Shown here: in pieces, positions 1 to 24,181 of the stretch
Position numbering within the stretch: position 1 is the stretch's first letter
Layout of the letters: each line of letters begins with the position of its first letter
Source of the DNA: a virus
Virus record (IMG/VR): IMGVR_UViG_3300032053_000344
Coordinates: 1-30,448 of that record
Length of the DNA: 30,448 nt
Reading direction: 5' to 3' (one strand)
Position numbers and translations under genes: made by a program
The notes under the pieces: model-generated
The model's database searches: none
What the model saw: only the letters and a program-made list of their open reading frames with translations
What the model was told of the DNA's origin: nothing

Positions 1-126
1 GGTAGCGGAATGGAAACGAAGATAAAACAGTTTTTAACCGGAGACGGAAACGGATACGGAAGCGGATACGGAAACGGAAGCGGAAGCGGAGACGGATACG
101 GAGACGGAGACGGATACGGAAACGGA
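1..126 (+). repeat. Terminal overlap, left copy
   Basis: Bases 1-126 are identical to 30318-30443. This means the sequence closes on itself (circular, or circularly permuted and terminally redundant DNA), giving a unique length of about 30317 bp. After base 126 the two copies diverge inside the hexamer repeat. Confidence 0.92.
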
Positions 127-918
127 TACGGAAACGGAAAAGGATACGGAAACGGAAGCGGAAGCGGAAACGGAAGCGGAAGCGGAAACGGAGACGGAAA
201 CGGAGACGGAAACGGAGACGGATACGGAAACGGAACCAGAACCGGAAGAGGATACGGAAACGGAAGCGGAAGCGGAAACGGAGACGGATACGGAGACGGA
301 GACGGATACGAAAACGGAAACGGATACGGAAACGGAAACGGAAGCGGGAACGTAAACGGAGACGGAAAAGGAGACGGAGACGGAAGCGGAAGCGGAAACG
401 GATACGGAGACGGATACGGAGACGGAGACGGAGACGGAAACAGAGAAAAACTTACGCTTTTCCAAAACAAACCAGCATATTACGTCGATTCAATTCCTTG
501 CATCTTTGAATCAGTGCATGATAATTGGGCATCGGTACTTGTGATCCAAAAAGAAGACTTTAGCACTAAAAAGGCTTTTATCGCTAAACTTGGTATTTAT
601 TTCGCTCATGGTGACACGATTAAAGAAGCCTTTGAAGCGTGCAATGAGAAAGTCATGGATAACATGGACTTTGACGAAAAGAAGAAAACCTTTTTTGAAA
701 AGTTCCCTTCTTTTTTAGAACAGTATAAAACCGCTGGTTTTTTCGATTGGCATAACTTTTTAACCGGTTCGTGTAAGTATGGGCGTGACCAATTTGTTGA
801 ACAAAAAGGAATTGATTTATCTGGAACGATGACAGTCAAAAACTTTATTTATTTAACGAAAGATTCGTATCAAGGCGAGTTGATAAAACAACTTGAAGAA
901 ATGTATGTACAAGATTAA
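10..918 (+). CDS. Gly-X repeat protein with conserved phage C-terminal domain
   Basis: The protein has 302 residues. Residues 1-10 are a short lead; residues 11-144 are almost pure Gly-X dipeptides in which X is Asn, Asp, Ser or Tyr; residues 145-302 form a globular domain. The C-terminal domain shows FAHG near residue 199, WHNFLTGSC near 255 and LTKDSYQGELIKQLEE near the end. I recognise this as a conserved phage domain of unknown function that often follows Gly-rich low-complexity tracts. The start is supported by the junction copy (ATG at 30327), which lies 16 bp inside the end of the upstream DUF6948-like gene behind GAGGTAGCGG. The repeat region differs in length between the two ends of the window. 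The role is unknown; the repeat is probably a flexible or cation-binding linker (inference). Confidence 0.85.
   Translation: METKIKQFLTGDGNGYGSGYGNGSGSGDGYGDGDGYGNGYGNGKGYGNGSGSGNGSGSGNGDGNGDGNGDGYGNGTRTGRGYGNGSGSGNGDGYGDGDGYENGNGYGNGNGSGNVNGDGKGDGDGSGSGNGYGDGYGDGDGDGNREKLTLFQNKPAYYVDSIPCIFESVHDNWASVLVIQKEDFSTKKAFIAKLGIYFAHGDTIKEAFEACNEKVMDNMDFDEKKKTFFEKFPSFLEQYKTAGFFDWHNFLTGSCKYGRDQFVEQKGIDLSGTMTVKNFIYLTKDSYQGELIKQLEEMYVQD
40..441 (+). repeat. 402-bp hexanucleotide (GGA-NNC) tandem repeat
   Basis: Sixty-seven consecutive 6-bp units run through codons 11-144 of the first gene. Each unit is usually a GGA glycine codon followed by AAC, GAC, TAC or AGC, with a few exceptions (AAA, ACC, AGA, GTA, GAA). 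The tract is purine-rich on the + strand. It keeps the reading frame because the unit is two codons. The partial second copy at the right end lacks 108 bp (18 units) relative to this one. Confidence 0.95.
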
Positions 919-2403: not shown

Positions 2404-2458
2404 CGGTATCGCTGTTTTAGTACTGATACTTTTAAGCGTGTGGGTTTGTGGATGTTAG
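2396..2458 (+). CDS. Possible 20-residue hydrophobic peptide
   Basis: ATG 2396 opens a 20-codon frame ending at TAG 2458, with GGAAGA seven bases upstream. The peptide is MFNGIAVLVLILLSVWVCGC, almost entirely hydrophobic with a Cys-Gly-Cys end, as in a tiny membrane peptide. It overlaps the upstream gene by 8 bp. Its stop codon lies inside the ATGTTAGGC at which the cassette-like array begins. It is short enough to be chance. Confidence 0.35.
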   Translation: MFNGIAVLVLILLSVWVCGC

Positions 2459-2460
2459 GC
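2454..2460 (+). other. Left junction core of cassette-like array (GTTAGGC)
   Basis: GTTAGGC fits the integron core site GTTRRRY. The 9-mer ATGTTAGGC (2452-2460) is repeated exactly at 3276-3284, and ATGTTAG again at 2874-2880, so all three borders of the two gene units share one core. I see no attC-like fold directly left of it, so it would be an attI-like or secondary target site. Confidence 0.45.
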
Positions 2461-2494
2461 TGAACAGTCTAATCTATGTTATGTCGATGCTTCA

Positions 2495-2514
2495 CCGTGT
2501 AACAAGTTACACGG
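2495..2514 (+). promoter_or_regulatory. Leader hairpin 1 (CC-GTG-TAAC AA GTTA-CAC-GG)
   Basis: A perfect 9-bp stem with an AA loop lies 20 bp before the ASCH gene start. The second cassette has the same hairpin with three base pairs changed on both sides (see 2893-2912). The flanks CACC and GGATWAT are also shared. There is no U tract, so it is not a terminator. Confidence 0.75.
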
Positions 2515-2534
2515 ATTAATCACGGGAGGGAAAA

Positions 2535-2828
2535 ATGCTTACTTTGCCTATAAAAAAGAAATGGTTTGATATGATTGTGAATGGTGAAAAGAGAGAAGAA
2601 TACCGAGAAATAACACCGTATTATACGGTGAGATTTCATAACCGAGAATCAGACGAAGAAAACATATCCGAGTGTATTTTACGCAATGGGTATTCAAAAG
2701 ATTCACCGTCTATTGGAATTGATTTCTGGTTAGATATTGGGAAGGGTCGCGAAGATTGGGGGGCAGAAAAAGGCAAGGTGTATTATATACTCGCAATAAA
2801 AAGAGTATGGAAAACAAAAGAAACATAA
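2535..2828 (+). CDS. ASCH-domain protein
   Basis: The product has 97 residues. It opens with LPIKKKWFDMIVNGEKREEYRE-type sequence, followed by RNGYSKDSP near residue 51 and WGAEKGKVYYILAI near the end. These are hallmarks of the ASCH fold (PUA-like, RNA-binding or nucleoside-processing), common as a single-domain protein in phages. GGGAGGG precedes the ATG. Its TAA stop (2826-2828) forms the first bases of the attC-like site, as is usual in integron cassettes. The exact substrate cannot be read from the sequence. Confidence 0.82.
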   Translation: MLTLPIKKKWFDMIVNGEKREEYREITPYYTVRFHNRESDEENISECILRNGYSKDSPSIGIDFWLDIGKGREDWGAEKGKVYYILAIKRVWKTKET

Positions 2829-2882
2829 CAACTTAATGAACTTGACAAAACAATAGTTTTGCAAGTTATCAAAATGTTAGAA
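2826..2882 (+). other. attC-like recombination site 1
   Basis: The segment folds as TAACA/TGTTA (2826-2830 with 2875-2879), a 2x2 AC/AA internal loop, TTAAT/ATCAA (one mismatch), an unpaired G2838, AACTTG/CAAGTT, an unpaired A2845, CAAAAC/GTTTTG, and a 4-nt loop AATA. The right core is GTTAGAA (2876-2882), close to GTTRRRY. The layout of R box, central spacer, L box with an extra base, and further extrahelical bases on one strand is that of an attC site. It is stepwise identical in geometry to the site at 3226-3284. Confidence 0.6.
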
Positions 2883-2892
2883 CGATAAAACA

Positions 2893-2912
2893 CCAGATAA
2901 CAAGTTATCTGG
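2893..2912 (+). promoter_or_regulatory. Leader hairpin 2 (CC-AGA-TAAC AA GTTA-TCT-GG)
   Basis: A perfect 9-bp stem with an AA loop precedes the 93-residue gene. Against the hairpin at 2495-2514, three consecutive pairs differ and every change is compensated. This shows the fold, not only the sequence, is kept. Confidence 0.75.
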
Positions 2913-2937
2913 ATAATTTACGAGGAGAAAAAGAATT

Positions 2938-3219
2938 ATGGATGGTTGCGGAATGGAAATGCCAAAGTATCAGAGTTTCAAGGTGGTTCACGCTCTCAAG
3001 ATTGCAAGGATCGTGCGTGATGGTGAAGGTCAAGATTGCGAAAGCGATGGTAGTGCGATGATGACTCCCGAAGATAAAGGATATACTCCCATGAAACTGG
3101 AACGTGAGTATATGAACAAGCACAAACCAGAAGTCGGTGGGTATTACGTTATGTATGAAGACGGATATAAGTCATTCAGTCCTGCCCTTGCTTTTGAATC
3201 AGGGTACAAAAGAATTTAA
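2938..3219 (+). CDS. Conserved phage protein of unknown function
   Basis: The product has 93 residues. Motifs MPKYQSFKVVHALKI, DKGY near residue 47 and GGYYVMYEDGYKSFSPA followed by FESGYKRI match a small conserved protein often seen in phage accessory regions; its function is not known to me. GAGGAG lies upstream. It is the only gene of the second cassette-like unit and is followed after 7 bp by the second attC-like site. Confidence 0.7.
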   Translation: MDGCGMEMPKYQSFKVVHALKIARIVRDGEGQDCESDGSAMMTPEDKGYTPMKLEREYMNKHKPEVGGYYVMYEDGYKSFSPALAFESGYKRI

Positions 3220-3225
3220 GATTTT

Positions 3226-3284
3226 CTAACAACTGCTTCAACATCGACAAAATAGTAATTTTGCGAGTTAAGCAAATGTTAGGC
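3226..3284 (+). other. attC-like recombination site 2
   Basis: Folding: CTAACA/TGTTAG (3226-3231 with 3277-3282), AC/AA internal loop, TGCTT/AAGCA, unpaired C3239, AAC/GTT, unpaired A3243, TCG/CGA, unpaired A3247, CAAAAT/ATTTTG, loop AGTA. All three extrahelical bases are on the same strand; on the bottom strand they read G, T, T, the bases known to guide IntI binding in attC sites. The right core GTTAGGC (3278-3284) fits GTTRRRY exactly. The left arm TAACAACTGCTTCAAC resembles the left arms of class 1 integron attC sites. Confidence 0.65.
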
Positions 3285-3320
3285 GAATCAAACATACCAG
3301 AACCGCCAAAGGAGTAATAA

Positions 3321-23522: not shown

Positions 23523-23731
23523 CAGAAAATACAGGAAATGTAGTGAGAACGGTACTATCCGTAAACACTTTAGACTATGTAATTAAACTAGGGTTTACCG
23601 CCTTTGTGGTCGTTGTTATAATCGTAGCCGCCGCATACTTTATCAAAACCACAAGAATTGAAAAAGTCGGGCTTGCGGGCGCAGAGTTTGACCCGGAAGA
23701 TGAAAAACCAGAAGAGACAGCGGGAAAATGA
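23519..23731 (+). CDS. Single-helix membrane protein, holin candidate
   Basis: The product has 70 residues with one strong membrane helix at ~24-44 (GFTAFVVVVIIVAAAYFI) and an acidic tail (DPEDEKPEETAGK). It lies between the endolysin and the spanin-like pair and starts behind GAGGGGAAAG. Size and context support a class III holin. Its TGA stop lies exactly between the two start codons of the following pair. Confidence 0.6.
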   Translation: MTENTGNVVRTVLSVNTLDYVIKLGFTAFVVVVIIVAAAYFIKTTRIEKVGLAGAEFDPEDEKPEETAGK

Positions 23732-24048
23732 ATGGGAATACTCAAAAAAGTATACTTGTTTGCCTGTTTTTTGGGTCTGTTTATGTGTTTTCTGGTTGCC
23801 AAAGTGTCCCCAGAAACATATCAGGTGACGGAGCTGGAGCTGTCGAGACTAGAAACAATATCGACGACATTAGAAACGGACAGACAGAACTTGCTATCAC
23901 AGGTGAGCGTATTGAAAACGGTAGCGACAGACTTGCAGACGGACTCAAAGAGCTTGACGGAACAATTGAAAAAGGACAGGGAGACATTGACGAATTTAAG
24001 GCAATCCTTCGAGAGATCAGAAGCAGAAAAACAAAAGACCTTGAATGA
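23728..24048 (+). CDS. Rz1-like outer-membrane lipoprotein (o-spanin)
   Basis: The product has 106 residues. The hydrophobic signal ILVCLFFGSVYVF is followed by the lipobox FSGC (Cys23), so a mature lipoprotein of ~84 residues is expected. The mature part is charged and regular (ERIENGSDRLADGLKELDGT). Almost all of the gene is read from the same DNA as the 149-residue frame starting 4 nt later. An embedded lipoprotein in the lysis cassette is the mark of Rz1, which fuses inner and outer membranes with Rz. It implies an outer-membrane host. Confidence 0.65.
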   Translation: MNGNTQKSILVCLFFGSVYVFSGCQSVPRNISGDGAGAVETRNNIDDIRNGQTELAITGERIENGSDRLADGLKELDGTIEKGQGDIDEFKAILREIRSRKTKDLE

Positions 24049-24181
24049 AAATGTCACGCTAAAAATTGAAAAAGGAAAGGTTGAAAATCAAAGGAATGTA
24101 TTCTTTTTTGTTTCAATAATTCTTGTTTTTCTCATAACAGGGTTTATTCTGCTACGATTAAAAAGGATGCTAGGCTTCTGA
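23732..24181 (+). CDS. Rz-like coiled-coil inner-membrane protein (i-spanin)
   Basis: The product has 149 residues. A signal anchor lies at residues 7-24 (VYLFACFLGLFMCFLVAK), then a long coiled coil (about 30-118, for example LSRLETISTTLETDRQNLL). Unlike classical Rz, there is a second membrane helix at ~122-142 (VFFFVSIILVFLITGFILL). It starts 4 nt after the lipoprotein start, so both genes share one ribosome-site region. The extra helix is odd for an i-spanin: the protein might be a two-anchor variant or something else using the same locus. Confidence 0.6.
   Translation: MGILKKVYLFACFLGLFMCFLVAKVSPETYQVTELELSRLETISTTLETDRQNLLSQVSVLKTVATDLQTDSKSLTEQLKKDRETLTNLRQSFERSEAEKQKTLNENVTLKIEKGKVENQRNVFFFVSIILVFLITGFILLRLKRMLGF

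Follow-up and report, generated by a model that had tools for sequence, protein, structure and literature searches.

How gene cassettes travel between integrons, and where they originate, is an old open question. The locus described here puts that question to a phage: does a viral genome carry an array of integron-type cassettes and, if so, what kind of site receives them and what could move them? The window, by which we mean the whole stretch of DNA analysed, is the source record of a 30,448-bp virus with 41% GC, in which the predicted genes all lie on the plus strand and a 126-bp direct terminal repeat is present at the record ends. Predicted genes include NinG, terminase, portal, a Peptidase_S74 protein, an M15 endolysin, ERF, a Gam-like protein, a KilAC antirepressor and a DnaD-like replication protein. 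The locus is situated in a region of small genes, with NinG on one side, terminase on the other and co-directional neighbours. The terminal repeat falls within a gene (window 1–918 plus the last 131 bases) whose product is built of short repeats rich in Gly (GNGYGDG-like); contig L002 has a relative of the gene at another place, with terminase on one side and portal on the other.

We consider it likely, judging from the sequence, that window positions 2454–3286 represent an integron without an integrase, composed of an attI-like landing site and two one-gene cassettes that each end in an attC (Table 1). Comparative analysis at the sequence level demonstrated the structure and homology of the attC sites, the homology of the attI-like site, the exact G^TT boundaries, the lack of intI and the sharing of cassettes between phages.

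Table 1. Predicted features of the cassette array (window coordinates)
Feature	Coordinates	Strand	Description
attI-like site	2454..2484	+	direct box GTTAGGC 2454-2460, TGAACA, inverted L box GTCTAA(T) 2467-2473, R box G^TTATGT 2478-2484; crossover 2478^2479
Gene cassette 1 (398 bp)	2479..2876	+	flanked by G^TT in the attI-like site (left) and in attC 1 (right)
Leader hairpin, cassette 1	2495..2514	+	CCGTGTAA-CAAG-TTACACGG, just 5' of the Shine-Dalgarno; direct reading
Cassette 1 gene	2535..2828	+	97-aa protein, predicted ASCH fold (phrog_625); Pfam and Foldseek
attC of cassette 1	2822..2884	+ (bottom strand folds)	covariance model 45.5 bits, E 1.6e-8; DNA fold z -4.0; crossover 2876^2877
Gene cassette 2 (402 bp)	2877..3278	+	G^TT at both ends
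Leader hairpin, cassette 2	2893..2912	+	CCAGATAA-CAAG-TTATCTGG; direct reading
Cassette 2 gene	2938..3219	+	93 aa (phrog_11049); modelled fold resembles phage L decoration protein
attC of cassette 2	3223..3286	+	covariance model 56.2 bits, E 5.3e-11; fold z -5.1; crossover 3278^3279

Two hairpins of the attC type

A preliminary description had recognized an integron-type array from three boundary sequences and two hairpins, and had proposed a search of the region with an attC model. All three boundary sequences are present, ATGTTAGGC at 2453–2461 and from 3276, and ATGTTAGAA from 2874 (sequence check). The seed for bacterial attC was an exact 18-mer taken from the right hairpin, which matched 16 genome contigs, six of them from Treponema or other spirochaetes, and 6 viral contigs. 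The covariance model comprised 36 sites from bacterial genome contigs, with the window and the viral contigs left out; 94% of cells in the model structure were paired, and compensatory change was seen in 12 of the 21 pairs across these 36 sites. This bacterial-only model matched both hairpins, bearing out the attC array, and nothing else in the 30-kb window scored notably: the next hit was the reverse strand of 3223–3286 (E 0.05), followed by noise. The description had also suggested a search of host genomes for the same cassettes beside intI; attC of the same type do adjoin intI in bacteria.

The bottom strands of both sites fold as attC, and none of 200 shuffles was equally stable. Both sites contain R and L boxes, an unpaired 2x2 central spacer, extrahelical bases on one arm and a GTT core. 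The earlier claim that both follow the full attC plan holds for the fold, the spacer and the extrahelical bases, but not for the details of the middle site (attC of cassette 1). This weaker site lacks the extrahelical G that is present in 36/36 training sites, and the final Y of GTTRRRY is missing from its core, GTTAGAA. In the same site a left A and a right C are mismatched on the top strand and form a T-G pair on the bottom strand, a pattern in keeping with bottom-strand selection. The ASCH stop codon (TAA, 2826–2828) lies inside the left R box, as previously noted. The attC of cassette 2 shares 82% identity over 56 nt with an attC region of the Tetrasphaera phage TJE1 (record G409, 49,219 bp). 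The loop sequence ACAAAATAGTAATTTTGC was found at 16 loci in viral contigs, with an attC at L086 and none at the others.

With two attC 400 bp apart and no intI, the locus belongs to the CALIN class, and it lacks the intI gene of a complete integron. The preliminary description had stated that this genome has no integron integrase, and the TIGR02249 intI profile indeed found no match in the window record; the same was true of all 17 viral records searched.

An attI-like site at the array head

No hairpin was detected upstream of the first GTTAGGC by fold check. We considered GTTAGGC at 2454 as a cassette start, and this was ruled out by the leader and attI alignments, in which it is the outer box of the attI-like site instead. 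The leftmost of the three proposed boundaries is therefore not a cassette boundary. The crossover at 2478^2479 places the start of cassette 1 at 2479, so that the first of the two units originally delimited, 2455–2876, is reduced to 2479–2876 while the second, 2877–3278, is retained.

The sequence TTAGGCTGAACAGTCTAATCTATG, 24 bp following the left G, also precedes the first cassette in further phage contigs, whose flanks differ. A 21-mer consensus derived from the attI of five Spirochaetota genomes found its best window match at 2461 with 3 mismatches, and none of 150 shuffles reached 3 or fewer. With leave-one-out position weight matrices (PWMs) built from other phages, the window site scored 35.9 bits against 10.3 for the runner-up, and the array head was top-ranked in 13/13 viral records tested. 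Two more viral records, G412 and G416, have a weak site or none. The TJE1 site is one base off the spacing that the matrix requires and was recognized by eye.

A phage-only PWM ranked the array-head site first in the genomes G377, G281, G075, G283, G296 and G009, and not in G002 or G004. The G377 site, GGAACAGTCCAATAAATG^TTAG, lies 400 bp downstream of intI and ahead of the first attC; in G281 intI is on the same contig with no attC in between, in G075 it is on the same contig, and in G009 it adjoins the site. The G296 site adjoins only an intI remnant, and that of G283 stands ahead of a cassette-like leader, with no intI seen, so that intact intI near the site was seen only in G377, G281, G075 and G009. 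By homology and by position, the array head qualifies as an attI, as a predicted site.

The same element has been read otherwise in TJE1, where positions 49197–49217 of HQ225832.1 (locus L308, 2698–2718) are annotated 'palindrome P1, putative terminator'. Positions 2455–2472 of the window are likewise palindromic, and could be a hairpin that terminates transcription or serves in regulation, with no more than a resemblance to attI, leaving a plain CALIN. We judge this very unlikely: a T-run is absent, the right half is conserved in the Spirochaetota sites together with the crossover while the left half of the palindrome is not, and the homologous bacterial sites occupy the interval from intI to the first attC. 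In TJE1 the palindrome GTTAGACCGATCGGTCCAAC is followed by CATG^TTGGATGGAC, the latter being a cassette leader, and P1 looks like an attI-like site heading an array with functional attC. The published 'terminator' would on these grounds be re-read as an attI.

A forward scan with a degenerate attI pattern returned nine further contigs, two of which (L310 and L313) have an intact attC directly downstream and two (L314 and L317) a cassette-type leader. The other five form one homologous family without the leader and were taken as a chance match. At L317 6354–6730, an attI-like site, a leader and a gene are followed by the left half of an attC only, as in a decaying cassette. Two phages each carry two separate attI-like sites (G403, at L186 3251 and L187 5806; G405, at L200 10646 and L177 5046); an attC array is headed by both sites of G403 and by one of the two of G405.

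Cassette leaders and cargo

Phage cassettes mostly begin with TTAGnnnGAC/T, followed by a hairpin and then a Shine-Dalgarno sequence (window 2479–2534 and 2877–2937; L176–L190). The stems vary in sequence and keep their pairing, further examples being CCGCGTAA-CAAG-TTACGCGG and AGGCATAA-CAAG-TTATGCCT. Within their first 70 nt, 28/44 phage cassettes (2.4 expected) and 9/90 G377 cassettes (5.9 expected) have a perfect inverted repeat of ≥7 bp, the expectations coming from simple shuffles and the leaders not being independent of one another. The leader of cassette 1 has a match in a G405 phage cassette (L177 6335). Leaders up to 97–100% identical over ~71 nt stand before different genes, and for this reason the leaders appear to behave as modules. 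We speculate that the leader hairpin is a translation or insulation element. A promoter scan for Pc gave fewer matches than shuffled sequence.

Cassette 1 encodes a protein with an ASCH fold, according to profile and structural modelling. Pfam ASCH was found, weakly, in 17/19 members of its family (best E 0.0015), and Foldseek retrieved 3iuw (prob 1.0) and ZmASCH 5y6c (prob 0.94), with E above 0.001. The modelled cassette 2 protein (AlphaFold pLDDT 81) resembles the phage L decoration protein, with a Foldseek match to 6e3c (E 1.2e-4, prob 1.0) and a marginal profile match to the 6e3c chain (E 0.15). It had no match in 393 Spirochaetota genomes in a search run without a positive control, and relatives of the ASCH protein in 80 viral loci had no convincing attC beside them. 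Members of both protein families occur widely in viral contigs with no adjoining attC, and it therefore seems that phage genes have been made into cassettes.

Related arrays and the mobility of cassettes

Such arrays occur in at least 15 other viral contigs, and an attI-like site heads nearly all of them. Fifteen viral records contain 1–6 attC of the same type each, two of these records being overlapping contigs of one phage, and G418 adds another; several have clear terminase, portal or head genes from different families. Cassettes are common to otherwise different phages, as seen by sequence comparison: G407 and G414 share one (82% over the cassette) at differing array positions, G408 and G415 share one at 85%, and G405 and G406 also share one. 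One phage-array cassette, at L182 4744–5892 on the minus strand (G413), has a long gene (369 aa counted from the start codon) that by eye resembles RtcB (RNA ligase).

A relative of cassette 2 (67% amino acid identity) occurs in L227–L229 with the same leader type, its own attC and flanks unlike the window. The comparison of phages that had been proposed came out in favour of the array in that this unrelated phage has breakpoints at G^TT. Among close relatives, none was found whose array at the same spot is empty or different. The two candidates for an empty site, L002 and L003 (TerL 81–83%), were uninformative, as both flanking genes are missing there.

A piece of a host integron, consisting of attI and two cassettes, could have been captured once by illegitimate recombination and now be immobile, as the missing intI, the middle attC without its extrahelical G and the half attC of L317 might suggest. 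The layout recurs in different phages with different flanks and cassettes, however, cassettes are shared at differing array positions, and some phages (G403 and G405) have two attI-like sites; a single, frozen capture is accordingly improbable in our view. The sites are common to phages without intI, many of whose proteins are uncharacterized, so a different, phage-encoded recombinase could also be envisaged. This we regard as extremely improbable, given that 24 window proteins, compared by tblastn with the loci then collected, revealed no such gene in common with other array-bearing phages, and that TJE1 attC of the same family work with IntI1 alone (PMC9892861).

More than 12 other phage genomes carry integrase-less arrays too, and phages for that reason probably borrow host integrases to trade genes. 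Under the integrase-less integron reading, a host IntI would act in trans on the array, and the phage would acquire and shed cassettes, or swap them with arrays of the host and with phages infecting the same cell. The cassettes would probably be expressed from upstream phage transcription and may benefit the phage. A broader proposal, to which we give an even chance, is that many phages keep an attI of their own as an integrase-less integron able to use any host IntI, with compact attC and a leader hairpin typical of phages, and so form a common pool of phage-adapted cassettes that are exchanged with other phages and host arrays.

Phage CALINs are already known, and the phage as a cassette carrier, which the preliminary description had thought unusual, has a precedent in Qi et al. 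2023 (PMC9892861), where IntI1 was shown to recombine TJE1 attC with attI1. Like the window, TJE1 has attC of the same family in an array without intI, with an inverted GTTRRRY palindrome at its head. Qi et al. described no attI for TJE1 and called the palindrome a predicted terminator (PMC9892861), whereas here the equivalent site is recurrent and homologous to host attI. Shewanella prophage M16-3 also has attI and cassettes in phage DNA, but is a cryptic prophage with its own complete integron, whose attI differs by one nucleotide from the Shewanella oneidensis attI (PMC9892861). The chromosomal (super)integrons of Treponema and other Spirochaetota (PMC3607928; G377) share the attC arms, attI core and cassette boundaries of the phage sites. 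They differ in possessing intI and, in G377, mostly long-loop attC of 110–130 nt, whereas phage attC are mostly ~53–67 nt, in arrays of few cassettes and no intI. We found no recurrent phage attI without integrase in the openly accessible papers searched, and to our knowledge it is new.

If this reading is true, phages that bring along a landing site of their own and a few small cassettes would serve as shuttle and as source of cassettes alike, an idea directly testable by existing IntI assays. The array would also constitute an accessory-gene site with base-exact edges, useful for finding phage accessory functions.

The host of the phage

G377, from the same phylum as the Treponema MAG G002, contains the same attC arms dozens of times in ~100 kb, and its intI adjoins the array (457 bits against TIGR02249). 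We considered a Spirochaetota host on the basis of attC type and found the assignment unsafe, as the same type occurs in TJE1, whose host is an actinobacterium; for the same reason the host cannot be fixed as Treponema. The only near-full-length Spirochaetota TerL match had 32% identity. At 23728–24181 the window has two overlapping frames, one for a coiled-coil membrane protein and one for a lipoprotein; this spanin-like pair suggests a diderm host.
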